From Myxococcota bacterium (GTDB lineage: Bacteria > Myxococcota_C > UBA6777), in contig JAKLKB010000057.1 of NCBI GenBank assembly GCA_023150835.1, forward strand, positions 1-37,059: 37,059 nt of DNA, written 5' to 3'. Position numbers and translations under genes: made by a program. The notes under the pieces are model-generated. The model saw only the letters and a list, made by a program, of their open reading frames with translations, had not been told where the DNA came from and made no database searches. Positions 1-32,333 of this stretch are shown here, one piece after another (position 1 is the first letter of the stretch; each line of letters opens with the position of its first letter).

Positions 1-1819
1 GATCATGAAACAAGAACTGCGTCAACGCTTTGGCCATTTCTGTCTTTCCTACCCCTGTGGGTCCAAGAAAAAGAAACGATCCGATCGGGCGTTGGCCTCG
101 GAATCCTGCGTAGTTTCGCCGAACGACGGTCGAGATCTCGCGCAGGATGGCGTTGTGCCCAATGACCTTTTGCCCCAAAACCTCTTCCATCCGAAGAAGT
201 CGCTCTCGATCCTCGACCAAAAGATGCTCTTTGGGGATGGCACTCAAGTTTGCGATCACCTCGACAACTTGGGGGCGATCAACGGTCTTGACGCCTTGTC
301 GTTTCGCCCGAGAAGCCGCCATATCCAACACATCCAAAGCTTTTGCAGGGTGACGGCGATCATGCAGATAACGCGAAGAAAGCCGAACAGCCGACTGTAG
401 CGATGCGGTTGTAAAGTGGACTTTGTGATGGATCGAATAGGTGCGCAACAAGCCTTGCAGGATCTGTAAGGTCTCTTCTTCGGAAGGCTCTTCGACCCAG
501 ATCGTGTGAAAGCGCCGAAGCAGCGCGGGATCACGTTCGATATAAGTTTTGTATTCGTGGATCGTCGTTGCACCGATGCAAGGGAACTCGCCACGCGAAA
601 GCACCGACTTGAGGTCATTTGAAGCGTCTTGCGCGCCTTCGCCCACCGCTCCTGCCCGAACGAGCGTGTGGATCTCGTCGATGAAAACGATGATCTGACC
701 GCGTGCTTCGACAACTTCTTCTTTGATGCCTTTGAGTTTTTCAGCCAAAGCGCCACGCATCTGCGTCCCTGCCAACAAGCGACCCATATCCAATTCAACG
801 ATCACTTTGTTCGACATCTCGGGATCTTCATCCGCGATCAGACGACACGCGAGTCCTTGAACGATCGCAGTCTTCCCAACGCCCGGCTCTCCGACCAAAC
901 AAGGGTTATTCGCACGTCGTTTACCCAAGACGTCGATCATCTCGACGATCTCACGGCTTCTGCCGATTAACGGGTCAAATCCACCCGAATAAGCCTGTTC
1001 GGTAATGTTTTTACATGATTGGGTGAGGTGCGGAAAGATATCTTCGGGTAAACGGCCTGCGACGAGATCACGCAAAGCCTCTCGGATCTGAGATCCACGC
1101 GAAACCCCCGACAGAGCGAATGGCAAAGCAGACGAAGAAACATTCGATCCGTTCGAAGAAGTTCGGTGCGAGGCCGGAGGAATCGAAGAACCACTCGGAC
1201 GTGGAGACGAACCCAAAGAAGACAACGTCGGCGGAGTCGTTGTCTGGTTGGGCAGAATGGACGGATTGCTGGGGGGCGTCGAGAGATGAGTCGGAGGGTT
1301 CGGTGGAGCCGAAAGATGCGAAGGCCGGGAAGAAGGGGCGTGGGAAAGAACACTTTGCGGTTCTGTATCTGCGGCCTTTTCTCGCCAGCGACGATTGACG
1401 GCCCCCGAAAGATAAAGGTGAAGTTGATTACGGAGGGGTGCAAGATCCGACAAACAGCCGCGCAACGCAACATGGGCTTGGCTATGCGTACGCACGATCG
1501 CCATCAACAGATGCAGCGTGTCTTCCTCTTCCGATTGAAAGCTTTGTGCAAGATTTCGACTCATCGAAGCCGTCGCCTCTAACGCATTAAAAGGCTCCTC
1601 AAAGCTCCAAGGCAACGCACCAAGCACACGCTCTTCCGTGATCTCTCTCTCTTTTAAGAGAACTTCGGCTTTGTTGGGTTGAAGAAACATCGCCAACAAC
1701 AAGTGAAGCGTTTGTAGATCTTGTTGGGAGTGTTCTGCGAGGCCACACGCGTTGTCGTAAAGAGCAAGCAACTCTGCACTACGAGGGACGGTTGTCTGCG
1801 AAGATTCCAAACTCACCAT
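1..1819 (-). CDS. Clp family AAA+ unfoldase (ClpA/ClpC-like), truncated by window edge
   Basis: ATP-driven double-ring protein unfoldase of the Hsp100/Clp family, cytoplasmic. 606 codons are visible. Residues 1-140 contain two Clp N-type half repeats (LHLLLAMF and LHLLMAIVR). Residues 150-235 are a Pro/Ser/Thr-rich linker, much longer than usual for the family. D1 has Walker A GEPGVGKT at 310-317, Walker B VFIDEIH with D381/E382, and the arginine-finger segment ALLRRF near 433-437. D2 begins with Walker A GPTGVGKT at 586-593 and is cut off. No long coiled-coil M domain lies between D1 and D2, so it is more ClpA/ClpC-like than ClpB-like. Oddity: the D1 pore loop reads GTQMRG where the family usually has a KYRG-type aromatic residue. 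The ATG at 1819 is chosen because AGGAGAG lies just upstream. It is divergent from the gene at 2217. Whether it partners ClpP cannot be judged because D2 is missing. Confidence 0.9.
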   Translation of the reverse strand, partial: MVSLESSQTTVPRSAELLALYDNACGLAEHSQQDLQTLHLLLAMFLQPNKAEVLLKEREITEERVLGALPWSFEEPFNALEATASMSRNLAQSFQSEEEDTLHLLMAIVRTHSQAHVALRGCLSDLAPLRNQLHLYLSGAVNRRWREKAADTEPQSVLSHAPSSRPSHLSAPPNPPTHLSTPPSNPSILPNQTTTPPTLSSLGSSPRPSGSSIPPASHRTSSNGSNVSSSALPFALSGVSRGSQIREALRDLVAGRLPEDIFPHLTQSCKNITEQAYSGGFDPLIGRSREIVEMIDVLGKRRANNPCLVGEPGVGKTAIVQGLACRLIADEDPEMSNKVIVELDMGRLLAGTQMRGALAEKLKGIKEEVVEARGQIIVFIDEIHTLVRAGAVGEGAQDASNDLKSVLSRGEFPCIGATTIHEYKTYIERDPALLRRFHTIWVEEPSEEETLQILQGLLRTYSIHHKVHFTTASLQSAVRLSSRYLHDRRHPAKALDVLDMAASRAKRQGVKTVDRPQVVEVIANLSAIPKEHLLVEDRERLLRMEEVLGQKVIGHNAILREISTVVRRNYAGFRGQRPIGSFLFLGPTGVGKTEMAKALTQFLFHD

Positions 1820-2216: not shown

Positions 2217-5200
2217 ATGAGCGCTTCGGAAGCACAGATCAACCGTTGGGAGCAGCGACTTCTCTCCTGTGGTTTTGCGAAACTCACCCCATGGCAACGC
2301 GATATCATGCAACAATGGCTTCAAGAGGCCTCTTGGATCGCCTTCTTTCCGGTGGGGGGTGGCGTCGGCTTTTCTTATCTCCTCCCCGCGCTCGAAGCCC
2401 CCACAGGGGTCACGCTGGTGATCTGTGGAGATGCACAACGGCGCACACGCCGAGAGCAACAAGCCCAAGCACTCGGAGGTCAAGTCCTTCTCCCACAAGC
2501 CGATCACGAGCTTCCCCCCGCTCACTCCGGGGTTGTCTTGATGACCACAAAAGAAGCCGAACAACGGGCAGATCAGCTACCTGCTTGGGTGACTGGCCGC
2601 GTTCGTCGCGTCGTCTTCGATGGTTGCGGCGCTTCTGCTCAAGCGCCGTCGTGGTGGCCCGCTGTTCAAGGACTTCCCTTTGGCTTCTACCCAACCGAGC
2701 ACAAGGCAGAAGCGTGGTGGGCGAACCTCCTCGATATCCCACACGAAACGCTTCATTACAACCACGAAGCCTTTGAGATCTCGTGGGATCTTGGTGAAGG
2801 ATCGGTTGTTCAAAAACTGGGACACGCCCTTGAAGCAGGCGCTCGCGTGCTTTGGATGTTTGGCGGGCAACTCTTTCGCCACGCGCTTGAGCAAACCACA
2901 GGGATCCACATCCAAGAAACTCCCCGATATCCCGCATATTCCGATCCATCCGAACCATCAGACGCCAATCACCGCGAACCATCGACCACTCCATACGGGG
3001 ACGAAGCGGTCAGCACGCAGCAGAACTCCGACACTTCGCAAGTTTCCAGCACGCCGAAAACCTCCAGCCAGTCGGGGCAAGCGACTGTGTATCTTTTCCC
3101 ACCAGATCCGACCTCTTTGCGTCACGCACCTTCTCCACAGCGCATCTTCGTTGGGTGCCTTCCAAGCAGACTACGAGACCTCGGAAGTCTTGCCAACCTT
3201 CAGCCCGAACAGATATCCATCCTGCTACCACAAGAAACGCCCAACCATCACACCCCCGAGCAAGACGATCTGCTCCGCTACCTCGAAGAAAAAGCGCAGG
3301 CCCATCCAGATAAACCACTGTATCTCAACAGCCACGAGATCATGCAAGCCTTGAAGCTACCGCTCTCTCCGCAGATATCTTACGAACGCAGCTTAAACAC
3401 ACTCGAAGATCTGCTCAACCAACTTCAAACGAAAGGCAGCCTCGGTTCGTGGTTTCCTGTGTTTTTCCAAGCCAAGATCCTTAATGCGCGGGGCTTTCAA
3501 CCTGCACAAATGGGGCAACACCCAGATCTGCTGGCTTTCCACGAAGCCATCGCACAGATGCAAAAGCAACTCAGCCCGCTTGAATCGCTCAACGCATCCT
3601 TTTTGAGCGGACGTGCGCTCGATCTTCGCTTCATTGCCAAGCGAACGCCTTACACCGTCCGAGAACTCAACGCGATCTTCCAAAAGCTTCACGAACAGGG
3701 CTTCGTCGTCAACCAGCTCGAACACCTCCCCGGTCCGCAACACTCGCTCGAACACGAATACCAGATCCAACTCGGCGAGATCACTCGACCCAGTCTGGCA
3801 GTCCAACTCTGGTCACGCACCAAAGAGGCTCGTCTTCCTCTGCTGCTGAGCAGCTTTTCTCGACAACCTCTACCCGAAGACACCGCCCTTCAAGCCGTCT
3901 GGAACCTCGATCCACAACAAAACGATTTTTGGGAAAAAGCCCTTTTCTTGCTCGATAACGCGAAAAAGGAACAACGCCTTTTTGTACTTGGTGGTCGGAT
4001 CTTACAAAAGCTGGATCGCGCTCCAAACGATGCTGGACTTGCCCTATGGATGGGGCTGATCGCCACACTTCAACTTCCCCCGCTTGAGGATGCGAGCCTT
4101 TATCGCCGCCTTCTTCCACCTCCTCGCCAAGCTCCGATCGGCCTCTTCGCCTTATGCAAGCACCTCCTGTCCCAAGCTCCCATGCCTCCGCGATCTTGGA
4201 TCGATTACGTACTTGCCCTTCCTTCCGCCGAAGACGACGAAGAGATGTCCCACCTGTTTGTTCGACACAACGCTCAACGCGCCCTCGGTATCTCTCGATT
4301 ACACGGTCGCTTTCGATGGTTATTGCAACGTTATCACCAAAGCATGACGCAGCTCACGCGCTCCTTTCTTTCTCAAGATCCCCTTCCATCCGAAGAAGCC
4401 AACGATCAATTGTCGAAGGAAACCGAAGAATCCGACATCGACGAACAACCCCTTGTACCCGCACAGACCGAAGAACCAACCCACGATCCAGATCCCCCCT
4501 CGCCGATCTTGGTCCCACAACTCCGCAGCATGGACGTGCAACGCCTCGCAACAAGCTTTCCAATCGAAACGCTCGCAGCATGGGGATGGACGCTTCATCT
4601 GCTTGGTGAAAGTGAAGCCGGCCTGCCGCTCTTGCGTTTCGCCCAACAGCAAGAAGAACGCTACAAACAGCGTTACGCAAAGCTTGCGCTCCTAGTCCCC
4701 AAACAACTCTACCGCGAAAAAAGCGGCTGGCTGCGATGGCTGATCGAAGAAAGCGAAGATCGCCAAGACGAAAAACTCCGAAAGCGCATCATGAAACTAC
4801 TCATTGACCGCAAAGAAGGCACAACAAGCGACCTTCAACAAGTCGCGCTATGGGCCGAACAAGAAGGCGATCACAAGCGCGCAGCACGACTACACAAACA
4901 ACTCATCGAACTACGCCCCGAAGCACCCGAACATCCCGCAGCGCTTGCACGCCTTTCGCTGCAACACAACAGACTGCAAGACGCCCTTCAATACGCCATC
5001 CAAGCGAATCGTCTGAATCCACGGCACTATCCGCTCGACGTCTTTCTTGACAAAGCCCAAGAAGCCTTGTTTGCGGATCTTGACGAACTTCGGCGCCTTC
5101 TCGTCGATCTCCCCGCACATCCCGCACTTTCCAAGATCGAAAGCGAACTCTCACAACGCGAGCAACTGGCCCATCAACTCGCGCCGTTGCGCAAACAAGC

Positions 5201-5948
5201 CGAAGAAGATCTCAAGCAACAACGTCTCGCTCAGGCCCGAGAGAAAGCACGCGAAGTCCTTGCACAACACGCCCACCTCGCTCCGATCCGCTTTCTCCAG
5301 ATCCGACGCGAAGTTGATCAAGAAGAAAGCAAGCTCCAAAAAGCTCTTCAGGATCTGGATCGACGTGGTCGCGGTCCAAAAGACCCACGCGACCGAAACA
5401 AACAACTCGAAGCCCTCGCCGATCAAGCCGCACAACTCGGCTTTGTGCAACTCGCCACCGAAGGATACGAACACCTGACGCAGCGAAACGAAGGGTACGG
5501 TCTCGCATGGTTCAAACTCGCACGCACCACTCCGCACTCCGAACAACGCGATCGCGCCTACGCGAAGGCGATCTCGCTTGCACGCGGCCCCGAACAACGA
5601 CAGCGCAACCTCGAAGAATGGGCGCAGATCCTCGATCGAGAAGGCAAGCTCGATCTGCTCCTTCCCACGCTGCTTTCCATCCTCGAAGAACACAACGAAG
5701 AAGCCCAACAACTCGAACCGATCCTGCTTCAACTGATCGGGAAATACGGCGTCAAATCGGACGTTGCACAAAAACTCGAAGGCTTTCTCAAGCACCACCG
5801 CAGCGATCTCGATCTCAAACGCGCCGAACAAGCGCTTAATGAGATCGAGCATCTCGATCCTTGGAAGCGCCAGCTTCTTTCCATGCAAGCCGAGATCGCG
5901 CAAAAAAACAACGCTCGAACCACCCGCCGCCCACCTTCACGCCGTTGA
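2217..5948 (+). CDS. Degenerate RecQ-helicase-like domain fused to TPR/coiled-coil protein
   Basis: 1243 residues, function unknown. The first ~230 residues follow the order of RecQ helicase motifs but with key residues lost. FAKLTPWQRDIM (20-31) matches motif 0. PVGGGVGFSYLLPAL (45-59) matches the RecQ motif I PTGGGKS..YQ.PAL, with Lys replaced by Val50 and Ser by Gly51. TLVIC (66-70) matches motif Ia. VVFDGCG (132-138) sits where DEAH should be, with Asp kept and Glu lost. A Ser/Thr/Pro-rich linker (about 234-290) leads to a region that may be the second RecA and winged-helix part. From about 780 to the end there are TPR-like helices and a coiled coil near 970-1040, ending in a basic tail. 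ATP hydrolysis is unlikely. The ATG at 2217 has GGAG upstream. The stop codon lies inside a 25-bp tandem repeat. The RecQ relation is my reading of motif order; the TPR part is moderately clear. Confidence 0.85.
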   Translation: MSASEAQINRWEQRLLSCGFAKLTPWQRDIMQQWLQEASWIAFFPVGGGVGFSYLLPALEAPTGVTLVICGDAQRRTRREQQAQALGGQVLLPQADHELPPAHSGVVLMTTKEAEQRADQLPAWVTGRVRRVVFDGCGASAQAPSWWPAVQGLPFGFYPTEHKAEAWWANLLDIPHETLHYNHEAFEISWDLGEGSVVQKLGHALEAGARVLWMFGGQLFRHALEQTTGIHIQETPRYPAYSDPSEPSDANHREPSTTPYGDEAVSTQQNSDTSQVSSTPKTSSQSGQATVYLFPPDPTSLRHAPSPQRIFVGCLPSRLRDLGSLANLQPEQISILLPQETPNHHTPEQDDLLRYLEEKAQAHPDKPLYLNSHEIMQALKLPLSPQISYERSLNTLEDLLNQLQTKGSLGSWFPVFFQAKILNARGFQPAQMGQHPDLLAFHEAIAQMQKQLSPLESLNASFLSGRALDLRFIAKRTPYTVRELNAIFQKLHEQGFVVNQLEHLPGPQHSLEHEYQIQLGEITRPSLAVQLWSRTKEARLPLLLSSFSRQPLPEDTALQAVWNLDPQQNDFWEKALFLLDNAKKEQRLFVLGGRILQKLDRAPNDAGLALWMGLIATLQLPPLEDASLYRRLLPPPRQAPIGLFALCKHLLSQAPMPPRSWIDYVLALPSAEDDEEMSHLFVRHNAQRALGISRLHGRFRWLLQRYHQSMTQLTRSFLSQDPLPSEEANDQLSKETEESDIDEQPLVPAQTEEPTHDPDPPSPILVPQLRSMDVQRLATSFPIETLAAWGWTLHLLGESEAGLPLLRFAQQQEERYKQRYAKLALLVPKQLYREKSGWLRWLIEESEDRQDEKLRKRIMKLLIDRKEGTTSDLQQVALWAEQEGDHKRAARLHKQLIELRPEAPEHPAALARLSLQHNRLQDALQYAIQANRLNPRHYPLDVFLDKAQEALFADLDELRRLLVDLPAHPALSKIESELSQREQLAHQLAPLRKQAEEDLKQQRLAQAREKAREVLAQHAHLAPIRFLQIRREVDQEESKLQKALQDLDRRGRGPKDPRDRNKQLEALADQAAQLGFVQLATEGYEHLTQRNEGYGLAWFKLARTTPHSEQRDRAYAKAISLARGPEQRQRNLEEWAQILDREGKLDLLLPTLLSILEEHNEEAQQLEPILLQLIGKYGVKSDVAQKLEGFLKHHRSDLDLKRAEQALNEIEHLDPWKRQLLSMQAEIAQKNNARTTRRPPSRR

Positions 5949-5984: not shown

Positions 5985-6067
5985 AGTGACGCGGTGGAAT
6001 GGTTTTGGGACACGAACACGGCTTTATTTTGGCAACAAGTCGCTCCTATAACGTAGAAGGATCTCGC

Positions 6068-7066
6068 ATGGCTCGAATCTTTGTCACCCATCCGCTTCCC
6101 GGTACGGCCTTCTTGCGCCTGAGCGAAGAACACCAAGTGACGGTCTTTTCAGCGGATCGCTCTCCCACAAAAGCAGAGATCATCGATCATCTCCAAACAG
6201 CCGAAGTTTTGGTATCGTTGATCACAGACGAGATCACCTCCGAAGTGATCGATGCCGCCCCCCACCTCCGAATCATCGCCAACTACGCCGTTGGATACAA
6301 CAATATCCATGTGGACTGGGCCACACGGCACAAGATCCCCGTCCTGCATACACCGCACGTCCTGACCGATGCTTCGGCAGATCTGGCCTTTGCTTTGATG
6401 CTTGCTGTGGCTCGTCGCATCGTCGAATCGGATCAATGGCTGCGCTCGGGTGCATGGGCGGGTTGGAAGCCTCAACAGATGCTTGGAACCCATGTCACGG
6501 GAAAAACCCTTGGGATCGTAGGGATGGGACGCATCGGGATCGCGCTTGCACGACGCGCACGCGGCTTTGAGATGCCGATCCTTTACACCAACCCAGAACG
6601 CCTCGCACCCGGCCTCGAACGCGAACTTGGAGCCCGTCACACCGATCTCGACGAACTCTTGGCTCAAAGCGACTTTGTCTCGCTACATTGCCCGCTTACG
6701 CCCCACACTCGCCACCTGATCAACGCGCAGCGCCTCCAACAAATGAAGCAGGGCGCGATCCTGATCAACACCGCACGCGGCCCGATTATCGACGAAGTCG
6801 CCCTTGTCGCCGCCCTTCAAACAGGCCCGCTCCAAGGGGCCGGTTTAGATGTTTTCGAACAAGAACCCGATGTCCACCCCGATCTACTGGCTTCTGCGCG
6901 TGTCGTTGTAACACCACACACAGGCAGCGCGACAACAGAAACACGCGCCGAGATGACCGCCCTACTCGTCGACGGTATCCATGCGATCCTCCAAGGCCGC
7001 ATCCCCCACAACGTCGTCAACCCCGAAGTTCTGCGCACACAGCAAGAACCCGATCAAGACGATTGA
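6068..7066 (+). CDS. NAD(P)-dependent 2-hydroxyacid dehydrogenase (glyoxylate/hydroxypyruvate reductase type)
   Basis: 332 residues, the usual length for D-isomer-specific 2-hydroxyacid dehydrogenases, which reduce 2-oxoacids such as glyoxylate or hydroxypyruvate with NAD(P)H in the cytoplasm. The Rossmann motif GMGRIG is at 152-157. The catalytic triad is present: Arg237 in NTARGP, Glu266 in DVFEQEP and His284 in TPHTGSAT. The substrate-binding stretch NYAVGYNNI lies at 72-80. A start at 5999 is possible, but the ATG at 6068 begins the conserved fold directly and has an AGAAGG-type ribosome site, so it is preferred. It ends 12 bases from the convergent kinase gene. The exact substrate cannot be fixed from sequence alone. 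Confidence 0.93.
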   Translation: MARIFVTHPLPGTAFLRLSEEHQVTVFSADRSPTKAEIIDHLQTAEVLVSLITDEITSEVIDAAPHLRIIANYAVGYNNIHVDWATRHKIPVLHTPHVLTDASADLAFALMLAVARRIVESDQWLRSGAWAGWKPQQMLGTHVTGKTLGIVGMGRIGIALARRARGFEMPILYTNPERLAPGLERELGARHTDLDELLAQSDFVSLHCPLTPHTRHLINAQRLQQMKQGAILINTARGPIIDEVALVAALQTGPLQGAGLDVFEQEPDVHPDLLASARVVVTPHTGSATTETRAEMTALLVDGIHAILQGRIPHNVVNPEVLRTQQEPDQDD

Positions 7067-7078
7067 TCACGTCCGACC

Positions 7079-8359
7079 TCAAGAACATCCCCGACCAAAC
7101 AGCAGCCACGCCAACAATCCCACCAAAAGCCCCCAAAACCACACCCACACCACGTCCACCGACGAACTCGTCCGCCTTTCCAAGATATCTTGGCGCGCAA
7201 CAGGGATCACTTTGCGCTCTGTTGGAAAAGCCCCTGCCACCGCCAAAAGCGCAGGATCTTCTAGGATCTCTAAGATCTCGGATAACTTTGGGCGATGCTT
7301 GGGTTCGGGGTCGATACCAGCGCGGATCACGTCATGCAAAGGCGGATGGGGGATCTCCAAAGCATCCCAATCTCGCTCGATCTTGTGGATATCAAGATGC
7401 GTCGGTTCGGTGCGACCATCTCCAAAAGGATAGCGTTCGGACAACAGTCGATGCACCATCACACAAAAGGCGTAGACATCGGCTTTTTCGCCTTCTTTGT
7501 GGCTACTCGGTCGCCGAGACTCATCGAACTGTTCGGGTGCGTAATACGGGGCACTTCCCACCGAAAGCGTTAAGATCCCGTCGATCATCGAAAAGTCATA
7601 GTCGATCAGAGTCATCTTGGGAGGTGATGACCAGCCCCCATGTTCCTCAGGAAACAACAGGATCTGATCAGGTTTGAGATCCATGTGCGCGATCTCGTGC
7701 CGATGCAACAGCAACAAGACGCGTGCGATCTCTTGAAGCAGCAGGATACGTGGAGCGCGATCGGTGTGTTGCTTCATCCAGTCCCACAACGAAACACACC
7801 GAAGATACGGCTTGATCTGGACATACGTGTCGTCTTCCAACAAGAAGTGATCGAAGATCTCCTCGACACGGGGATCTTGAATCTTTCGCAAACGCTGGAT
7901 CATCCGCTCTTGATGCGCAAACATCTCTTGTGGAGAAAGTGCTTCGCGCAAAGGCCGATAACGCTTGACAAGACAAATCGACCGATCAGGCAAACGACCC
8001 ACAGACGTCGAAGAGGACAAACTGCCATGCCGCAGGTGCTTTAAGATCTGCACGTGACCGAACTTTTGGTTTGCGCCTGACTTGTTTTTCCACGTCCGAT
8101 ACCACGCAGCGCGATGATGCGCAGGCGGATGCGCCAAATGCACGCAGGCTCGCTCCGCCTCCAACGCCAACGCAGCGTAAAGATCGGGATCTTCTTGTTC
8201 CAGCCGAGTGATCCGCTCCGCGAAACCTTGCTGATGCCGCAGTATCCGAACAAGCCGTTCATCCGATGGCCGAACACCCTTGGCCTCTTTTAACATCTGC
8301 TCGAACGCCGCAAGGCTCGGCGCTCCCTTGCTCGGCGTTGACAACGCGACTTTTTTCAC
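7079..8359 (-). CDS. Atypical Ser/Thr protein kinase with C-terminal membrane anchor
   Basis: 426 residues. A ~100-residue N-terminal extension precedes a eukaryotic-type kinase fold. Lys132 (CLVKRY) fits the ATP-binding lysine. The catalytic loop is HMDLKPDQI (225-233), with Asp227 and Lys229 kept but the metal-binding Asn changed to Gln232. The DFG motif reads DYD (253-255). The APE motif (274-276), Asp294 and Arg356 are conserved. The glycine-rich loop is not recognisable. A single membrane span (about 403-421) next to the C-terminus anchors the kinase with its catalytic part in the cytoplasm. The start is a GTG at 8359 with AAAGGGGG upstream. It lies 23 bases after the short-chain dehydrogenase stop, so the two are probably cotranscribed. 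It may be a weakly active kinase or a pseudokinase. Confidence 0.88.
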   Translation of the reverse strand: MKKVALSTPSKGAPSLAAFEQMLKEAKGVRPSDERLVRILRHQQGFAERITRLEQEDPDLYAALALEAERACVHLAHPPAHHRAAWYRTWKNKSGANQKFGHVQILKHLRHGSLSSSTSVGRLPDRSICLVKRYRPLREALSPQEMFAHQERMIQRLRKIQDPRVEEIFDHFLLEDDTYVQIKPYLRCVSLWDWMKQHTDRAPRILLLQEIARVLLLLHRHEIAHMDLKPDQILLFPEEHGGWSSPPKMTLIDYDFSMIDGILTLSVGSAPYYAPEQFDESRRPSSHKEGEKADVYAFCVMVHRLLSERYPFGDGRTEPTHLDIHKIERDWDALEIPHPPLHDVIRAGIDPEPKHRPKLSEILEILEDPALLAVAGAFPTERKVIPVARQDILERRTSSSVDVVWVWFWGLLVGLLAWLLFGRGCS

Positions 8360-12018: not shown

Positions 12019-15000
12019 TCAGCCTTTCAAGAGGCGGAGGCGAAAGCGCACAAGCCAAGCCAAAAGAAGCAAACATAACCAAAAGATCGATGTATCGGCT
12101 GGGTTAGAAGCATCGCAGCCACAACCACCCCCAACGATCCCCACGCCCACGTCCGGCACATTCTCTGTGATCTGCTCTTGCCCGACTTCTTTGTCTGCGC
12201 CGTAGCACAAGCCTGCTCGACAAGTTCCGCCACCACAGTTCACCTTGTTGCAAGGATCGTCGATGCAACGGCTTTTTTCACAAAGGCGGCCATAGCGGCA
12301 AGGCGAAGCGACCGAGGCACAGGCATCTTGGGTGCATTGACCTTCTTGGCACGTTTCACCGCTTGGACAGGTCACCCCAAAACAAGGGTCTTTTTGACAA
12401 AGCCCGTCCACACAACGCTGACCACTCGCACAAGAAGAGCAAGACTTTTTGCAGCCGCCGCTTTGCGGATCGCAAAACTCGCCTGTTGCGCAGGTTTTGC
12501 TGTTGCAAGGATTGTCTTTACACGCACCTTGAGCGCAAAGCTGCGCCGTCGCACAGTCCTGTTTGGTATAACACCCGGGAGCAACGCACGCTGCGCTGAC
12601 GCAGATGCTATCGCCCGGACACTCGGCATCGACCTTACAAGGCCGACCGCCCACACACTGGCCCTTCTCACAAGTCGATGGGACGGGGCATTTCAGATCT
12701 TTACAAGGATCATCCACACAACGGCTGACCTCACAGACACGGCCTGTTTTGCACTGATCGCTGTTGGGGACACACTCGTTTGGAACGCACGCACCGCTTC
12801 GGCAGATCTCGTTGCTTTTGCAAGTGACTCCCGCGCATGGATCGGCTTTGCATCGTCCATCAAGACAGATCTGCTTTTCGGGGCAGAAGATCCCCGCGCA
12901 AGTTGCGACACAATCTCCCGCACGGCAGATCTGATCTTGCGTACAATTTTTGCCGACACACGGGTCTTTTAGACACTTTCCGTTGATGCACAGCTCGCCT
13001 TGTGCGCAATCTGCGGTAGCTGCGCAAGTTCGAGGGATACAAGTACGCTCAACGCAGATCTCCGTACCACCGCACTCTTTGTCAAATTGACAGCCCTTCG
13101 CTACGCATTGTCCAGCCACACAGATCTCGCCAGAGACGGGGCAAGTAATACCAAAACACGGATCATCGACACAAGCGTTGCTTGAGGGATCGCAGACACG
13201 ACCATGACGGCAAACACTGGCGTTTGTGCAATTGCTTTTCTCGCACTTTCCAGCCACACAAACTTCACCGACAGCACAAGACACCGATGCACAAGGATCC
13301 GCGACGCAAGCACCATCGACGCAGCGTTGGCCTTGAGCGCACGACACGCTGCCGCAGCTTTTTACGCACTTGTTGTCCGAAGGGCGGCAAAACTGCTCCG
13401 TGCTGCATGGCGTGCCGTTGGGTGCGGGACAAAGCTGTGGCTCGCAAATGGCTTTGACGCAGCGCTGTGTTTGGGGGCAATTGCTGGTGTAGCACTGGGC
13501 CGGTTGACAGATCCCTTGGAGGCAGACGTTCGTATTTGGGCAGTCGATATCGACCTTACATCGGGGGATATCCACACATTGGCCAAGAACACAGCGCTGG
13601 TTGTTGGGATCGGGGCACTGCACCTTGAGGCATGGATCTTCGGTGCATCGGCCTTGGACAGAGCAGATCCGACCAAAACGGCAAGACATACTGTTGCAAG
13701 GATTAGGGGAACACTTTGGCGCGCTGGTCGTGGTGTCGCAGATCTCATCGGCCTTGCAGGTAAGGCCCGCTGTTTGGCAAGGATCTTTACCGCACACTCC
13801 GTCTCGACAGGTCTGATCGGCGTTGCACTGCACTCCCGCACAAGGCTTAAAGCATATCCCATCGGCAGGACGGCAGGCTTCGCCAGCCGCACAGGTCTTA
13901 CCTTTACACGGATCAGGCAAACAAGCGCCTTCTTTGCAGAGATCATCTTGATAGAGGCAAGGCTGCGTTCGCGGCGTACAGATCGGCACAAAGCAACGAC
14001 CTTGGGGGTTTGCGCCAAAGATGCAGATCTGATCGTTCTTGCAATCGATATCGACCCGACAAGCTTGGCGGGGAGTGGCCTCGAATGTCTGGGTGTTGCA
14101 AAGAGGCGGAGTTCCGCTGTCACAGACCTCGACTTCAAATGTGGTGGTTTTGCCTTCTTCGCTTGGGGTGGGAGTCCAAGTGATCTTTCCTGTTTGAGGA
14201 TCGATGGTCGCCCCGGGGGGAGCTTGCTTGAGTTTCCAAGTGTGGGTGTCGCCTGTATCGGGGTCGCGTACGACAGGGGCGTACGTGAAGGCTTGTCCTG
14301 TGAGAGCATCGCTCGGTGGCGTTGAAGTGATCTCGGGAGGGTTGTTGCGTGGTGCGGTCAAGACACGCACTTGCCAACGGCGTTTGGTGCAGAGGCCTTG
14401 GCTGTCACAAAGCTCGATCTCAAAGTCAAAGGTTTTGCCGGCATCGTTGGGTCCGGGGGTCCAGTTCACCTCGCCTGTGTTGGGATCGACGGTCGCACCG
14501 GGAGGAAGCGTGTTGCCTTTCCATGTGTACGCCTCGTTGGGATCGGGATCGACGACAAAAGGCTTGAACTGATAAGCTTGGTTGGGGTTGGTCCATGTTT
14601 GCGGAGTACCGCCCATCTGGGGCGGTTTGCCTTTGTCTCCGACGCGAACTTTCCAGATGCGTTTTGCGCAAGCCCCCCGACTGTCGCAAACTTCCACCTC
14701 AAAAGTGAAGTCCTTTCCGACATCATTGGGTCCGGGGGTCCAGTTGAGTTTTCCTGTTTGAGGATCGACGGTCGCGCCACTCGGCCCTTGGTTGAGTTTC
14801 CAAGTGTGCGTATCTCCGACATCTGGATCGATGACTTTGGGTTCGTAGGCGTAAGGACGGCCTTGGGCAGCATCGTTGGAAGGTGCGCCGTCGATGATCG
14901 GAGGAGTATTGGGGACACCGCCGACTTTGACGCTCCAACGGAGCTTTGCGCAAGAGCCTTTGTCATCGCAGACTTCGATCTCGAAATTGATGGTCTTTCC

Positions 15001-18000
15001 AGCATCACTTGGGTCAGGCGTCCAGTTGAGTTTTCCTGTTTGGGGATCGACAGTTGCGCCGCTTGGCCCTTGGTTGAGTTTCCAAGAGTGTTTGTCGCCT
15101 GCGTCGGCGTCTTTGACTTTGGGTTCAAAGGCATAGGGTACACGCGGAGCCGCTTGGTTGTTTGGGATGCCCTCGATGCTTGGGGGCTGATTTCCCGCAC
15201 CCACCCGCGTATTCCAAGACTGTTGCACGCATGCGCCCTTGGCATCGCAGACTTCGACCTCAAAAGAAAACTCTTTCCCGTCATCACCCGCACTCGGTGT
15301 CCATGTGATCTCGCCTGTTTGGGGATCGATCGCGGCTCCTGCGGGTTTTTGATTGAGTTTCCACGTCAAAACATCCGCGTCAGGATCCGAGGCTTGGGCT
15401 TTGTAGCTATAAGGCAAGCCAGCACTCGCGCTGGTGGAAGGGGTGGTGGTGATCTGTGGGGGACGATTGGGGTCGACCACCAAGACCTTCCAGCTTTGGG
15501 TTGCGCAATCGCCCGCACTATCGCAAACAGTCACCTCGAACTCGAACTCTTTTCCGACATCACTTGCGCTTGGCACCCATGTGATCTCGCCTGTTTTGGG
15601 ATCGATGGTCGCGCCCGAAGGAGCTTTGTCAAGCTTCCATGTGTGTGTGTCGGATGCGTCAGGATCGCGAACTGTCGGCTTGTACGTGTAGGTCTTGTCT
15701 TTTTCTGCGCTGGCTTTTGGTGTCCCGATGATCTGTGGGAGCTGGTTTCCTGTGCCAACACGGACCTTCCATGCTTGCTTTGCGCAAAGGTTAGCGCTAT
15801 CGCACACTTCGATCTCGAACTCGAATTCTTTGCCCGCATCCCCTGTGGCAGGCGTCCATTTGACCTCGCCAGTTTGGGGATCGACGGTCGCCCCAGCAGG
15901 CAGGCGTGTGCCTTGCCATCGGTGGGTCTCGTTCGCATCGGGATCAACAACACTCGGCTGGTATCCATAAGACTTTGTTGCGGAGGCTGTCTTCTCAGGT
16001 ACGCCTTGGATCTGCGGGGGCGTGGAAGTGGAACACTTGGTGGGTTCGTCGATCTGGCCGTTGCAATCGTTGTCTTTGCCATCGCACTTGGTCTCGACAG
16101 CCTCATAATCGGCGCTTTGGGCGCTATACGAAGCCGCATCGCAATCCTTCCAACCATTCGTCCCATCGCACCGTTGTTTCGAGCCGACGCACACGCCTTG
16201 TTGTTTGGAACACAGCGGAGCGGTGAGATTTTCGTCCACTTGGCCGTCACAATCGTTGTCTTTGCCGTCGCACTTGGTTTCGACAGCCTCGTAATCGGCG
16301 TTTTGGGCGGTATATTCTGCTGCACCACAAGGCTTCCAGCCATTCACACCGTCACAAGTCTGCTTAGCCCCGCTGCATACGCCTTGTTGGTTCGCACATA
16401 ACGGCGGATTCAAGTTGTTGTCGATCTGTCCATCGCAATCATTGTCTTTCCCGTCACAAACCTCGGTCTGTTCGGTGATATCGCCTGTACAAGCGCCCCA
16501 CTTTCCCGTGTTATCGCAGGTTTGTGAGCCCTTTGCACAAGTACCTCGACAAGTATAGCTCCCGCCTGTTTGAGTGCAGCCTTGGTTGCCCGTATAACAG
16601 TCTTGTGTCTGGCCGCTTTGGCATTGACAACCCTCGTCGATCTGGCCGTTGCAATCGTTGTCTTTGCCGTCGCACTTGGTTTCGGTGGATTGATAGTCTG
16701 TGCTGTGGTTTTGATAATCCGTTGTGCTGCAATCTTTCCAACCAGCCGCCCCGTCGCACCGCTGTTTTGCGCCGTTGCATACGCCGGACTGTTTGGTGCA
16801 ATTGGGGGCGACCAGTCCCTCGTCGATCTGGCCGTTGCAATCGTTGTCTTTGCCATCGCACTTGGTTTCGGTGGCCTCGTAATCGGCATTTTGGGCGGCA
16901 TACGAAGCAGCATCACAGTCTTTCCAGCCGCCTGCCCCTGTACAGCTTTGTTTGGCTCCGACGCACGCGCCTTGTTGTTTCGAGCAAAGCGGAGCCGCCA
17001 AGTTGTTGTCGATCTGGCCGTTGCAATCGTTGTCTTTGCCGTCGCACTTGGTCTCAACTGCCTCGTAGTCTGCGTTATGGGCGGAGTATTCGGCATTTGT
17101 GCAATCTCTCCAGCCACTCGCTCCCCCGCAAGTTTGTTTGGCTCCGCTGCACACGCCTTGTTGCTTCGAGCAAAGCGGCGCAGTCAAGTTGTTGTCGACT
17201 TGGCCGTTGCAGTCGTTGTCTTGACCGTCGCACTTGGTCTCGATGGTCTCGTAGTTTGCGTTGTGAGCGGTATATTCGGCGTTTGTGCAATCTCTCCACC
17301 CGCTCGCTCCAGCGCAAGTTTGTTTGGCTCCGCTGCACACGCCTTGTTGTTTCGAGCAAAGCGGAGCCGTTAGGTTGTTGTCGATCTGACCGTTGCAATC
17401 GTTGTCTTTGCCGTCGCACTTGGTCTCGACGGCCTCGTAATCGGCGTTTTGGTTTCGATAAGAAGCTGCATCACAATCTTTCCAACCATTCGCACCATCG
17501 CAGGTTTGCCGAGAACCGCTACAAACCCCTGCTTGCTTCGAGCAAAGCGGGGCCGTCAAATTGTTGTCGACTTGGCCGTTGCAATCGTTATCTCGACCGT
17601 CGCACTTGGTTTCGGTGGCTTCGTAGTTTGCGTTGTGGGCTGTATAATCGGCATCTGTGCAATCGCGCCATCCTGTCGCCCCTGTGCAGATCTGTCGCGC
17701 ACCGCTGCATACGCCCTGTTGCTTCGTACAAAGCGGGGCCGTCAGGTTGTTGTCGATCCGACCATCGCAGTCGTTGTCTTTGCCGTCGCACTTGGTCTCG
17801 GCGGCCTCGTAATCAGGCGAGTTCGCCGCATAATCCGCACTCGTACAAGCTCGCCAGCCTGCCGCACCGCCACAAGTCTGTTTGGCCCCGCTGCATACGC
17901 CTTGTTGGTTCGCACAATTGGGCGCGATAAGGTTGTTGTCGATCTGACCGTCGCAATCGTTGTCTTTGCCATCGCATACTTCGGCCTTTTCGATGGCATC

Positions 18001-21000
18001 GCCCGTACAGGCCCCCCACTGGCCGTTGGTGCAAACTTGTGTGCCGGACTTGCACTCGCCTTTGCAAGTATAGGTGTTGCCGCTTTTAACGCAGCCTGAT
18101 CCACCCGTATAACAGGCTTGATTCTGCCCGTCTTGGCATTGGCAGCCTGTGTCGATCTGACCGTTGCAATCGTTGTCTTTGCCATCGCACTTGGATTCAG
18201 TCGCTTGATAATCCGCGTTGTGTGCGGTGTATGCGGCATCATCGCAATCTTTCCAACCACTCGCCCCTGTACAAGATTGTCTTGCACCATTGCAAACCCC
18301 CGATTGCTTCGAGCAAAGCGGGGCCGTCAGGTTGTTGTCGATCTGTCCATCGCAGTTGTTGTCTTTGCCGTCGCACTTGGTTTCGGTCGCCTCGTAATCA
18401 GGCGATTGCGCCGTATAATCGGCATCTGTACAATCGCGCCATCCTGTGGCACCCGTACAGATCTGCCGAGAACCGCTGCATACGCCTTGTTGTTTCGAGC
18501 AAAGCGGAGCCGTTAGGTTGTTGTCGATCTGCCCATCGCAGTTGTTGTCTTTGCCGTCGCACTTGGTTTCAGTCGCTTCATAATCAGGCGTATACGCCGC
18601 ATAATCCGCACTGGTGCAAGCTCGCCAACCGGCCGCTCCTCCACAAGTCTGTTTGGCCCCGCTGCATACGCCTTGTTGGTTCGCACACAACGGCGCGATC
18701 AAGTTGTTGTCGATCTGGCCGTTGCAATCGTTGTCAAGGCCATCGCACTTGGTTTCGGTGGCCTCGTAGTTTGCGTTATGGGCTGTATAATCGGCAGTTG
18801 TGCAATCACGCCAACCCGTCACCCCTGTGCAGATCTGCCGAGAACCGCTGCATACGCCCTGCTGCCTCGTACAAAGCGGTGCAATCAAGTTGTTGTCGAT
18901 CTGACCGCTGCAATCGTTGTCGAGGCCATCGCACTTGGTTTCGGTCGTCTCGTAGTTTGCGTGATGAGCCGTATAATCGGCAGTTGTGCAATCGCGCCAG
19001 CCCGCCGCCCCCATACAGATCTGCCGCGCCCCACTACAAACGCCCTGCTGTTTCGTACAAAGCGGCGCGGTCAGGCCGTTGTCGATCTGACCGTCGCAAT
19101 TGTTGTCCTTGCCATCGCAGATCTCCGAATTCGGAAGCTGCTGTCCTCCACAAGTGACAGGCCATTGCTCTCCTGTACAAGTCTGCGTTCCTGAGCGGCA
19201 TTCTCCGACACACGAATAGACACCGTTGAGCAACGAACATCCGCTTGCCCCTGTATAACAAGCCCGAGTGTCGCCGTTGTTGCAGACCACCACACGAACC
19301 TGCCACGTCCGAGTCGCCGTATTCCCTTCTTGATCGACCACAACTACCGTGAACGTGACGGTTTGACCGATCTCTCCCACCGAAGGCGTCCACAAGATCT
19401 GCCCAGAGTTCGGACTGATCGTCGCCCCTGCGGGGGCGGCAGAAAGAAAGTACAACAACGGCCCACCTTCGGGATCCGTCGCGACCACTTGGTTGGGCTT
19501 GTAAGGAGCCCCCGCAACGGCTGTGAGCGAAGGAGGCGGAGGAGCGGCGATCACGGGAGGCAGATCCAACGGCGATTCCTTGCCTGTCAGATGATACAGT
19601 TGCGTTGATCCGCTGATATCGCCACAAACCACCAAGACGGGATAACGATCCGCGATGATCTGCACAAGCTCTGCGTTGATCGAGTTGGCGGGTGCTTGGG
19701 CGTATTTGTACGTTTGCCCAGACCACGGCAACAACGGGCTTTGCCCCCCTGTCCATGGACCGATGTAGTAATTGATGGAAGTGTCGTTCTTTTGCCCGCC
19801 GATGGTACGGACTTCGACGCGTGTTTGCGCATCTTTCGTGTAAATGCCGATATCTGCGCCTTGTGCCGCGACCTTGTTGACGTAGCAATAACCTTCGTAC
19901 TTGTTGTCAGGGCGCTTGAAAAGTTGGACATTCGTAATATACGATCCTACCGCCCGCATCGCCGTTGGATACACGCTAATCGGCTTGTCTGATACGACTT
20001 CGATGTATTCCCCATTAAACCCCGTTCCATTCGAGATCTGCGAAAAGCCGTTGTAAACGTCAGGAAAGAGCGTCGCAGTCCAAAACGAGGGGACTCCCCC
20101 TGCATTGAGGGTGAAGGTCGTATTGTTGTTTCCTGCGGGGTTTGTGATGTTTCGGATCGTCACTTTGGTGTTGGCTTGCGAAGCAAAGATCGCAGTCTCG
20201 ATCGAGGCATGCGTGTAAAAACGTGTCCCGTACGAACGACCGAGGTCCGCAGGTGTCATCGACGGGGCTGTCATCGACCAATCGTTCCGACCAACGATCA
20301 CCCCCGCAGCAACGGAGCAATCGGGATTATTCGGACTGGATGGATTGGTGGGTTCGATGCGAAACTCGTCGTCGTCAAAGGTGGTGAGTTCCCAGATCCA
20401 ATAACGACCCGAGACGACACCATTCACATCACGCGATGGATTGGAAAACTTCACATTTGCAGAGGTCAGGGTTGTGCTGTCATCAGAGTCGGAAACATCG
20501 GTGACACGGATGTTTGGTACGATCGTTCCTGTCGTATCCGACGTGTGGCAATACACAAGGATATCTTTTCGTGTGTAGCCCACAAACACCTTCCCAACGT
20601 ACGTTCCATTTTGGCTGTAAAAGTACGTTCCCTCGCCGCCTGCGGTGCTTTTGCTGTCACCCGCCACGATCGACAACGGCTTGTCTGCACGCACATACAA
20701 ATGCCCCGTCGTCGAGGTGATCCCATACACGCTCAGATCGACAAACTTGGCACGCCCTGCGACAGGGATCGTACCCGCCTCGATCAGCGAATTATCCGAG
20801 ATGCGATGGATCCAATAACGCGCATTGTCTTGATAGCCCCAAAGAAACAGATTCGAGGCACTATAAACAAGATACACCGGCCCATTTTTGGCCGTGACGG
20901 ACCACGTCGTGTTGACGCACTGATTGGCGGTGTTGCACACCCGCGCTGTAAACGTCGCAACCCCCGTAGGATTAGGCCACGTCACCACCCCTGTGGCTGC

Positions 21001-21237
21001 GTTGATCGTGCTACCTGCTGGACTCGCGATCAAAGAAAAAGTCAGGTTCGGATCTCCAGCATCCACCGCGTCAAGATCAAACAGGTAAGAAGATCCCAAG
21101 ATCGCATAATCGGTAGGGGTGTTGGTAAAAGTCGGCGCGGCGTACACCGACGGAGCCTCCCACCCAAAGAACAGAACAACCCCCCAAAAAGCTGCAAACC
21201 AGACGGATCGGTATTGATATTGATGACGCAAATCCAT
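12019..21237 (-). CDS. Giant secreted mosaic surface protein: IgGFc-binding domain, 17 MopE repeats, Ig-like repeats, Cys-rich region, MYXO-CTERM-like anchor
   Basis: 3072 residues. Signal peptide (AAFWGVVLFFGW...SVYA). An Ig-like PIG-type domain (about 30-115). A region like the IgGFc-binding N-terminal domain (about 120-555; VYLVYSASN, LYVRADKPLSIVA). A second Ig-like domain. Then 17 MopE-type motifs (CDGKDNDCNGQID and variants, about 709-1732), most in ~60-residue units with NNLTAPLCSKQQGVCSGA linkers. Seven ~88-residue Ig-like repeats follow (P.GA.VDPQTG...WTP...G), to about 2375. A region with many DPC...C..G..C..G.C knots runs to about 3019. The C-terminus has GGGCGC, one membrane span and RFRLRLLKG, like MYXO-CTERM tails handled by a sorting enzyme. 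The ATG at 21237 is preferred for its AGGA site; 21285 is an alternative. Likely exported, disulphide- and metal-stabilised, and surface anchored or released; function unknown. Confidence 0.93.
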   Translation of the reverse strand: MDLRHQYQYRSVWFAAFWGVVLFFGWEAPSVYAAPTFTNTPTDYAILGSSYLFDLDAVDAGDPNLTFSLIASPAGSTINAATGVVTWPNPTGVATFTARVCNTANQCVNTTWSVTAKNGPVYLVYSASNLFLWGYQDNARYWIHRISDNSLIEAGTIPVAGRAKFVDLSVYGITSTTGHLYVRADKPLSIVAGDSKSTAGGEGTYFYSQNGTYVGKVFVGYTRKDILVYCHTSDTTGTIVPNIRVTDVSDSDDSTTLTSANVKFSNPSRDVNGVVSGRYWIWELTTFDDDEFRIEPTNPSSPNNPDCSVAAGVIVGRNDWSMTAPSMTPADLGRSYGTRFYTHASIETAIFASQANTKVTIRNITNPAGNNNTTFTLNAGGVPSFWTATLFPDVYNGFSQISNGTGFNGEYIEVVSDKPISVYPTAMRAVGSYITNVQLFKRPDNKYEGYCYVNKVAAQGADIGIYTKDAQTRVEVRTIGGQKNDTSINYYIGPWTGGQSPLLPWSGQTYKYAQAPANSINAELVQIIADRYPVLVVCGDISGSTQLYHLTGKESPLDLPPVIAAPPPPSLTAVAGAPYKPNQVVATDPEGGPLLYFLSAAPAGATISPNSGQILWTPSVGEIGQTVTFTVVVVDQEGNTATRTWQVRVVVCNNGDTRACYTGASGCSLLNGVYSCVGECRSGTQTCTGEQWPVTCGGQQLPNSEICDGKDNNCDGQIDNGLTAPLCTKQQGVCSGARQICMGAAGWRDCTTADYTAHHANYETTETKCDGLDNDCSGQIDNNLIAPLCTRQQGVCSGSRQICTGVTGWRDCTTADYTAHNANYEATETKCDGLDNDCNGQIDNNLIAPLCANQQGVCSGAKQTCGGAAGWRACTSADYAAYTPDYEATETKCDGKDNNCDGQIDNNLTAPLCSKQQGVCSGSRQICTGATGWRDCTDADYTAQSPDYEATETKCDGKDNNCDGQIDNNLTAPLCSKQSGVCNGARQSCTGASGWKDCDDAAYTAHNADYQATESKCDGKDNDCNGQIDTGCQCQDGQNQACYTGGSGCVKSGNTYTCKGECKSGTQVCTNGQWGACTGDAIEKAEVCDGKDNDCDGQIDNNLIAPNCANQQGVCSGAKQTCGGAAGWRACTSADYAANSPDYEAAETKCDGKDNDCDGRIDNNLTAPLCTKQQGVCSGARQICTGATGWRDCTDADYTAHNANYEATETKCDGRDNDCNGQVDNNLTAPLCSKQAGVCSGSRQTCDGANGWKDCDAASYRNQNADYEAVETKCDGKDNDCNGQIDNNLTAPLCSKQQGVCSGAKQTCAGASGWRDCTNAEYTAHNANYETIETKCDGQDNDCNGQVDNNLTAPLCSKQQGVCSGAKQTCGGASGWRDCTNAEYSAHNADYEAVETKCDGKDNDCNGQIDNNLAAPLCSKQQGACVGAKQSCTGAGGWKDCDAASYAAQNADYEATETKCDGKDNDCNGQIDEGLVAPNCTKQSGVCNGAKQRCDGAAGWKDCSTTDYQNHSTDYQSTETKCDGKDNDCNGQIDEGCQCQSGQTQDCYTGNQGCTQTGGSYTCRGTCAKGSQTCDNTGKWGACTGDITEQTEVCDGKDNDCDGQIDNNLNPPLCANQQGVCSGAKQTCDGVNGWKPCGAAEYTAQNADYEAVETKCDGKDNDCDGQVDENLTAPLCSKQQGVCVGSKQRCDGTNGWKDCDAASYSAQSADYEAVETKCDGKDNDCNGQIDEPTKCSTSTPPQIQGVPEKTASATKSYGYQPSVVDPDANETHRWQGTRLPAGATVDPQTGEVKWTPATGDAGKEFEFEIEVCDSANLCAKQAWKVRVGTGNQLPQIIGTPKASAEKDKTYTYKPTVRDPDASDTHTWKLDKAPSGATIDPKTGEITWVPSASDVGKEFEFEVTVCDSAGDCATQSWKVLVVDPNRPPQITTTPSTSASAGLPYSYKAQASDPDADVLTWKLNQKPAGAAIDPQTGEITWTPSAGDDGKEFSFEVEVCDAKGACVQQSWNTRVGAGNQPPSIEGIPNNQAAPRVPYAFEPKVKDADAGDKHSWKLNQGPSGATVDPQTGKLNWTPDPSDAGKTINFEIEVCDDKGSCAKLRWSVKVGGVPNTPPIIDGAPSNDAAQGRPYAYEPKVIDPDVGDTHTWKLNQGPSGATVDPQTGKLNWTPGPNDVGKDFTFEVEVCDSRGACAKRIWKVRVGDKGKPPQMGGTPQTWTNPNQAYQFKPFVVDPDPNEAYTWKGNTLPPGATVDPNTGEVNWTPGPNDAGKTFDFEIELCDSQGLCTKRRWQVRVLTAPRNNPPEITSTPPSDALTGQAFTYAPVVRDPDTGDTHTWKLKQAPPGATIDPQTGKITWTPTPSEEGKTTTFEVEVCDSGTPPLCNTQTFEATPRQACRVDIDCKNDQICIFGANPQGRCFVPICTPRTQPCLYQDDLCKEGACLPDPCKGKTCAAGEACRPADGICFKPCAGVQCNADQTCRDGVCGKDPCQTAGLTCKADEICDTTTSAPKCSPNPCNSMSCRFGRICSVQGRCTEDPCLKVQCPDPNNQRCVLGQCVDIPRCKVDIDCPNTNVCLQGICQPAQCYTSNCPQTQRCVKAICEPQLCPAPNGTPCSTEQFCRPSDNKCVKSCGSVSCAQGQRCVDGACVADPCASVSCAVGEVCVAGKCEKSNCTNASVCRHGRVCDPSSNACVDDPCFGITCPVSGEICVAGQCVAKGCQFDKECGGTEICVERTCIPRTCAATADCAQGELCINGKCLKDPCVGKNCTQDQICRAGDCVATCAGIFCPEKQICLDGRCKADPCAGVTCKSNEICRSGACVPNECVPNSDQCKTGRVCEVSRCVDDPCKDLKCPVPSTCEKGQCVGGRPCKVDAECPGDSICVSAACVAPGCYTKQDCATAQLCAQGACKDNPCNSKTCATGEFCDPQSGGCKKSCSSCASGQRCVDGLCQKDPCFGVTCPSGETCQEGQCTQDACASVASPCRYGRLCEKSRCIDDPCNKVNCGGGTCRAGLCYGADKEVGQEQITENVPDVGVGIVGGGCGCDASNPADTSIFWLCLLLLAWLVRFRLRLLKG
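14110..16020 (-). repeat. Seven in-frame Ig-like (PIG-type) repeats, ~267 bp each
   Basis: Coding repeats inside the giant gene. Each encodes PP.I.G.P, Y.Y.P.V.DPD, a short hairpin WKL.Q.PSGATVDPQTG, ..WTP...D.GK.F.FE.EVCDS.G.C...W.VRVG. The DNA copies are similar but diverged. They are part of one protein, not a mobile element. Confidence 0.85.
16030..19125 (-). repeat. MopE repeat array (17 motifs) within the giant gene
   Basis: A coding array with a ~180-bp period. Recurrent plus-strand segments such as GATCTGGCCGTTGCAATCG and TTGTCTTTGCCGTCGCACTT mark each CDGKDNDCNGQID motif. Near motifs 6 and 14 the unit changes to GCQCQ.GQ..CYTG, splitting the array into three blocks that look like segmental duplications. 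Confidence 0.9.
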
Positions 21238-21542
21238 GATGTCCATCCTATCGAGAAGTGAAGCCAAAGCGAGCGCGACACGCAAGAAGCATCCACCACC
21301 CGCAAGCCGTTAGCGGTCAGAAGTTCATGCTTTGTCGAAGATGTCTTTTATTTCTTCACGATAACTCACGCGCCAGACAAAACTCGCGTTCGCGAACGCT
21401 CAAGCGGAGGCGTTGTCGGTTTGAAAAACGCCTAATCTTTCCGCCAATACGGGGTCAAGGGGCGACAGTCCCTTGTGGGGCGTGGGGCAAAGCCCCACAA
21501 AACGGAGAAAATATACAAGGCCAATAAAAAACGCCGCCCCTC
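21238..21542. other. Intergenic region upstream of the giant gene
   Basis: 305 bases between the kinase stop and the giant gene start. It contains copy B of the hairpin element (21387-21503) on the plus strand, opposite to both flanking genes. The giant gene's promoter must lie here or in the element; no clear boxes are seen. Confidence 0.6.
21387..21503 (+). repeat. Dispersed ~118-bp hairpin element, copy B
   Basis: CGTTCGCGAACGCTCAAGCGG, then TTTGAAAAACGC, CCGCCAATACGGGGTCAAGG and the terminal hairpin GTGGGGC-AAA-GCCCCAC. It matches copies A and C in order and spacing. Confidence 0.8.
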
Positions 21543-32193: not shown

Positions 32194-32333
32194 TTTTATG
32201 CCTTGCCGTAGCGCATACAACCCGCTGCTTTTATGCCTTGCCGCAGCGCATACAACCCGCTGCTTTTATGCCTTGCCGCAGCGCATACAACCCGCTGCTT
32301 TTATGCCTTGCCGTAGCGCGTATAACCCGCTGC
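32194..32333. repeat. 35-bp tandem repeat formed from the 3' end of the glycosylase-like gene
   Basis: Copies start at 32194, 32229, 32264 and 32299. The last copy is the real gene end: on the minus strand it encodes AAGYTRYGKA and the TAA stop. The other three lie downstream and repeat the stop codon with two or three changes. Confidence 0.95.

Follow-up and report, generated by a model that had tools for sequence, protein, structure and literature searches.

The window analysed here, a stretch of 37,059 nucleotides from a Myxococcota bacterium (contig JAKLKB010000057.1), carries a gene whose product resembles a RecQ helicase at its front and helical repeats at its back, and it raises the question of whether this protein derives from RecQ, whether it can still turn over ATP, and what it might do beside a Clp-type unfoldase gene. 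The gene is a single open reading frame of 1243 codons with an ATG start (Table 1), and its product had no Pfam match above cut-off, only weak TPR matches and a weak recQ match (residues 19-69). Our comparison comprised five sequences, taken from draft assemblies that all belong to a single family, namely the window's own genome (G000), a same-genus relative (G001), and G002, G003 and G004 from other genera.

Table 1. Features of the probable pseudohelicase locus, in window positions.
Feature	Position	Strand	Evidence
Whole gene: probable pseudohelicase of RecQ descent, with TPR repeats and a winged-helix region	2217..5948	+	ORF, homologues, PDB profile search, dN/dS 0.15 against the same-genus copy
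Degenerate RecQ RecA-like domain 1, residues 1-185	2217..2771	+	PDB profile search, HH E 2.3e-9, AlphaFold2 model
Motif 0 counterpart, residues 23-33, LTPWQRDIMQQ	2283..2315	+	Alignment to E. coli RecQ; four members all keep W26 and Q27
Motif I counterpart, residues 45-54, PVGGGVGFSY (Lys position V50, Ser position G51)	2349..2378	+	Profile alignment; homologues GGGTG, GGGRS, GGGKG, deleted in G004
Motif II counterpart, residues 132-138, VVFDGCG (retains Asp135 but not the catalytic Glu)	2610..2630	+	D135 invariant in four members; permissive HH alignment
Possible rump of RecA-like domain 2, residues 186-345	2772..3251	+	Permissive HH alignment only; low pLDDT
Winged-helix region, residues 346-525	3252..3791	+	AlphaFold2 pLDDT ~80; VIA match to 5trd; dN/dS 0.08
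TPR repeats and further helices, residues 786-1243	4572..5945	+	TPR profile matches; dN/dS 0.06
Divergent ClpA-type double-AAA+ unfoldase, D2 cut by the contig edge	2..1870	-	Scores below cut-off with TIGR02639 (377 bits) and TIGR03346 (395 bits)
2-hydroxyacid dehydrogenase, glyoxylate-reductase type, downstream	5999..7066	+	Profile matches; 12-130 bp after the pseudohelicase gene in 5/5 genomes

Sequence comparison indicated that the N-terminal module is of RecQ-family descent. The recQ model TIGR01389 matched residues 19-69 of the window protein (E 0.0024) as well as the members from G001 (E 0.0025) and G003 (E 0.0007), at 16-18 bits against a curated cut-off of 640 bits. A four-genome profile covering residues 1-185 was compared with all PDB chains; its best 14 matches, which fell at profile positions 9-105, were RecQ helicases, ranging from E. 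coli RecQ (4.7e-8) down to RECQ1 (0.0016). An HH comparison with four canonical RecQs gave E 2.3e-9 and a probability of 96%, and the control with two DEAD-box helicases from the window's genome gave E 0.037 and 1.4%. Homology to RecQ over other SF2 helicases was thereby found for about residues 9-105 only.

Structural comparison gave a weaker signal. An AlphaFold2 model of residues 1-560, built without templates, reached a mean pLDDT of 60, and the four best Foldseek matches were BLM/RECQ1 (best E 7.9e-4, probability 0.41), with long alignments of high rmsd. Residues 32-158 aligned with SF2 helicase domain 1 over ~115 residues (Z 6-7.5, rmsd ~3.3-3.6); these values fall below the noise mark of Z 8, and the sequence evidence for RecQ descent is therefore the stronger of the two. 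A second model, of the G003 N-terminus, had a mean pLDDT of 44 and matched mostly SF2 helicases, and little weight was given to it. The sequence-only reading of this DNA had considered the helicase fold to be kept; RecA-like domain 1 was recovered with moderate confidence, but the second RecA domain appears eroded or poorly modelled, and the G004 member lacks motifs 0 and I. In the permissive HH alignment only, LPSRLRDLGSLANL (residues ~315-328) sits where RecQ has LPKSxExYYQExGRAGRDG (motifs V-VI). The putative domain 2 also holds a low-complexity insert at residues ~236-300 (dN/dS 0.4).

The same reading had listed RecQ motifs 0, I, Ia, II and III in the right order. Statistical support covers W26-Q27 of motif 0 and P45-V-GGG-V50-G51-F-S-Y54 of motif I, and motif Ia lies within the supported stretch; motifs II (F134-DGCG-138) and III (about 158-162) were placed by permissive HH alignment only and are less certain, motif II being placed also by the beta-strand at 129-135 of the AlphaFold2 model. 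The replacement of the Walker-A Lys by Val, of Ser by Gly and of DEAH by DGCG was seen as it had been read, with motif II again the less certain. That homologues with an intact motif I might expose the window protein as a single decayed copy had been raised as well, and none of the four homologues carries GGGKS. Motif I reads PVGGGVGFSY in the window, PVGGGTGFSY in G001, PGGGGRSHCY in G003 and PLGGGKGFCA in G002, so that Walker A is intact in 0/5 members (GGGVG, GGGTG, GGGRS, GGGKG, deleted): the Lys position holds V, T, R and K in that order and the Ser position G, G, S and G, both being deleted in G004, where motifs 0 and I were not found in six frames near the gene start. At motif II, as placed by the permissive alignment, the four remaining members have DGCG, DGCD, DSPH and DGLP, with G, G, S and G at the Glu position, and DExH with its catalytic Glu was found in no member. 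Since neither the Walker-A Lys-Ser pair nor the catalytic Glu is intact in any member, we infer that ATP hydrolysis by this protein is most likely impossible.

Some members may still bind nucleotide, as G002 keeps the Lys and G003 keeps the Ser with Arg for Lys. This bears on the possibility that the protein is a nucleotide-dependent switch, whose rearranged P-loop still binds or slowly hydrolyses nucleotide. Four members share an unchanged GGG turn and motif II Asp, which agrees with such a switch, as do the Lys and Arg just mentioned; in the window's genus, however, the Lys is replaced by Val or Thr and the Ser by Gly, and no member keeps the catalytic Glu, so we hold this explanation to be quite improbable.

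The family was found in a narrow range. All four homologues belong to one family of a small GTDB phylum, the five members spanning three genera, and their identities to the window protein are 89% (G001), 30% (G002), 30% (G003) and 27% (G004). Scanning 84,980 species genomes returned four loci, in the same four genomes; the scan used two peptide patterns only, which distant relatives could escape. No homologues were detected outside the phylum among 381 genomes, nor in a search of plasmids. These searches suggest a family that is narrow or has diverged past recognition elsewhere. Searches for canonical RecQ found none in the window's genome (93% complete) or in G001 (86% complete); the best recQ-model matches read in the former were DEAD-box proteins, and RecQ or TPR-RecQ proteins occur in G002-G004. 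Because no canonical RecQ was found in either of these two genomes, the pseudohelicase may be the sole RecQ-derived protein there.

The gene is maintained under purifying selection, strongest at the back end. With the G001 copy as reference, dN/dS was 0.15 overall, 0.27 in residues 1-185, 0.08 in residues 346-545 and 0.06 in residues 791-1243, and the linkers at 236-300 and 701-790 were relaxed (0.4-0.5). Purifying selection, together with a loss of residues common to all homologues, argues that this is not a dying single copy. A further possibility is that only the RecQ-derived part is decaying, as a functionless leftover on a TPR/winged-helix protein, with its loss under way as in G004. The higher dN/dS of residues 1-185 fits this explanation, as do the variation of the motifs in every genus and the disappearance of motifs 0 and I from G004. 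Inter-genus identity (window, G002, G003) is likewise lower in the RecQ part, at 23-29%, than in the winged-helix (29-37%) and TPR (32-41%) parts. Nevertheless, a ratio of 0.27 is far under 1, and four members from three genera keep PxGGG, W26-Q27, D135 and W146-W147 without change, which is not expected from drift alone. On balance we regard a functionless leftover as unlikely.

Within the front half, conservation is highest in residues 346-525, a region predicted to be a winged helix and matched by VIA to a 5trd chain (Z 8.1, rmsd 2.2, 67 residues). Its computed pI of 5.2-6.4, near neutral to acidic, does not favour a basic DNA-binding surface; in a comparison slice from three canonical RecQs, whose correspondence is rough, pI was >9 in two and 4.6 in the third. 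Homology of residues 301-560 to the RecQ C-terminal (RQC) domain was considered and rejected (profile comparison E 0.11 and 0.35), and profile comparison gave no sequence match to zinc-binding or RQC domains. At the back of the protein, where about 450 residues of helical repeats had been read, TPR repeats were confirmed by comparison with consensus TPR chains (E 1.6e-15) and by two Pfam models, TPR_19 matching the window protein (4e-4) and TPR_14 a homologue (E 9e-11). Conservation peaks at LPAHPALSKxExEL, which lies within residues 786-1243. Just before the TPR part, the members from G002, G003 and G004 carry a cysteine cluster, C-x5-C-x2-C-x7-C (CKxQxRCKxCxLxxxxxC; L012:12062-12200 and the L013 and L014 equivalents), possibly a zinc or iron-sulphur site, which is absent from both members of the window's genus.

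Taken as a whole, we think the protein is probably an ATPase-dead, RecQ-derived pseudohelicase that acts as a scaffold, a role without catalysis being the most likely one. First, the RecQ-derived module keeps the P-loop turn (PxGGG) and the first motif II Asp but most likely turns over no ATP. Second, the conserved function would reside in the winged-helix region and in the extended TPR part. Third, the TPR arm would grip a partner protein, and the RecQ/winged-helix part would dock a second partner, either a protein or, less certainly, a nucleic acid. The members show successive stages of loss, with the Lys kept, replaced by Arg, replaced by Val or Thr, and finally the domain partly deleted, in G004, whose C-terminal part is still 57% identical to that of G002; a RecQ-derived pseudohelicase of this kind would illustrate the transition from motor to scaffold.

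A candidate partner is encoded next door. A Clp-type gene, transcribed divergently from the pseudohelicase gene, is its neighbour in 5/5 genomes, and the altered D1 pore loop that the sequence-only reading had reported for it was also recovered. That loop is TQMRG in the window (about 752-766, minus strand) and TQMRG or TQLRG across the five genomes, the pore-loop tyrosine of the KYRG in ClpC and ClpB being Met or Leu in all of them. Complete copies have a D2 pore loop of GYVG or a close variant and intact Walker motifs. The neighbour Clp shares two AAA+ modules and the GYVG-type D2 loop with ClpA/ClpC unfoldases and, matching ClpA in one continuous stretch, has no ClpB-type middle domain; it differs from them in its Q-Met/Leu-RG D1 loop and in scoring below the ClpA and ClpB cut-offs (complete G001 copy: 603 of 993 bits with the ClpA model, 670 of 1232 with ClpB). 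An IGF tripeptide aligns near the AGFG loop of ClpC, and this position, with the lack of a ClpB middle domain, suggests that ClpP is its partner. In each of the five genomes a ClpA scored above cut-off, and two ClpP matches were found along with further Clp-type ones; as other Clp ATPases are present in all five, the neighbour Clp is an additional one.

The conserved neighbourhood makes a partnership between the Clp and the pseudohelicase plausible. Clp, pseudohelicase and dehydrogenase genes form the only block kept at the locus in 5/5 genomes, and each of the two proteins, Clp and pseudohelicase, is a divergent form. On the other hand, three of four control loci (ClpP1, ClpC-like, ClpB-like and ClpP2) keep at least one neighbour across the same genera, and the conserved pairing is for this reason suggestive, not strong. 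In G004, moreover, a SecD P1-head-like gene (L014:7284-8720, minus strand) separates the pair. Shared regulation through one divergent promoter was rejected because the arrangement is not kept in G004. We give roughly even chances to a real pseudohelicase that is unrelated to the Clp and adjacent to it through general conservation of gene order, an explanation compatible with the scaffold function. Were the scaffold to have a named partner, the likeliest would be this divergent ClpA-type unfoldase without the D1 tyrosine, to which the pseudohelicase could present substrates. Its service as an adaptor of the neighbouring Clp is speculative, and we rate it as doubtful. The more specific version, a dedicated adaptor whose dead RecQ and TPR arms would hand a protein or nucleoprotein substrate to a Clp lacking the gripping tyrosine of its first ring, seems unlikely. 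If the pseudohelicase does serve the Clp unfoldase, it would represent a new sort of Clp adaptor.

Several known systems resemble parts of this protein. With RecQ helicases (TIGR01389; E. coli RecQ, BLM, RECQ1) it shares an SF2 RecA-like domain 1 in which residues 9-105 align to motifs 0, I and Ia; it differs from them in lacking an intact Walker-A Lys-Ser pair and the catalytic Glu, in its apparently eroded second RecA domain, and in having its own winged-helix region and TPR repeats, and no match to their zinc/RQC part was found. The TPR-RecQ proteins of G002 and G004 (L042 and L034, ~980 aa) likewise combine TPR repeats and a RecQ core in one chain, but they have intact GAGKS and DEAH, an N-terminal TPR part and a C-terminal cysteine cluster. 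Alignment with them was limited to motifs 0/I (E 1e-6) and a weak TPR match (E 0.008). Descent from a whole TPR-RecQ was rejected because only motifs 0/I align well and the TPR likeness is weak and generic. The G003 member also matched the PADLOC model of DpdF, the RecQ-like helicase of the Dpd DNA-modification system (residues 34-85, E 3.9e-5); this match spans motifs 0 and I only, the window and G002 members were unmatched in PADLOC, and the neighbouring proteins scanned bore no resemblance to other dpd genes. Identity as a defence system was rejected, as the window protein had no PADLOC match.

Pseudohelicases are already known as a class. Deinococcus radiodurans PriA has degraded motifs and no ATPase or unwinding activity, and is kept as a DNA- and partner-binding protein (PMC4504706). 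It is similarly a bacterial helicase with degraded motifs; it derives, however, from PriA and its inactivity was shown by biochemistry, whereas the residue loss described here was read from sequence. The DEAD-box-derived yeast pseudohelicase Utp25 (PMC9539457) and mouse Recql4, made helicase-dead by design (PMC6636780), are eukaryotic precedents for SF2/RecQ proteins that function with a dispensable ATPase. A RecQ-derived pseudohelicase like the window's was new to our searches: none of this kind appeared in the literature searched, where the bacterial case was Deinococcus PriA.

Three other genes of the window, all on the minus strand, were also observed. Positions 12019-21285 encode a 3088-aa protein, probably a surface protein, in which Ig-like and MopE-type metal-binding repeats are numerous. 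The product of 32301-33191 had a weak match, below cut-off, to methylpurine-DNA glycosylase. In addition, the Ser/Thr kinase encoded at 7079-8359 has a hydrophobic segment at its C-terminus and matched several PADLOC kinase models, likely through generic kinase similarity.
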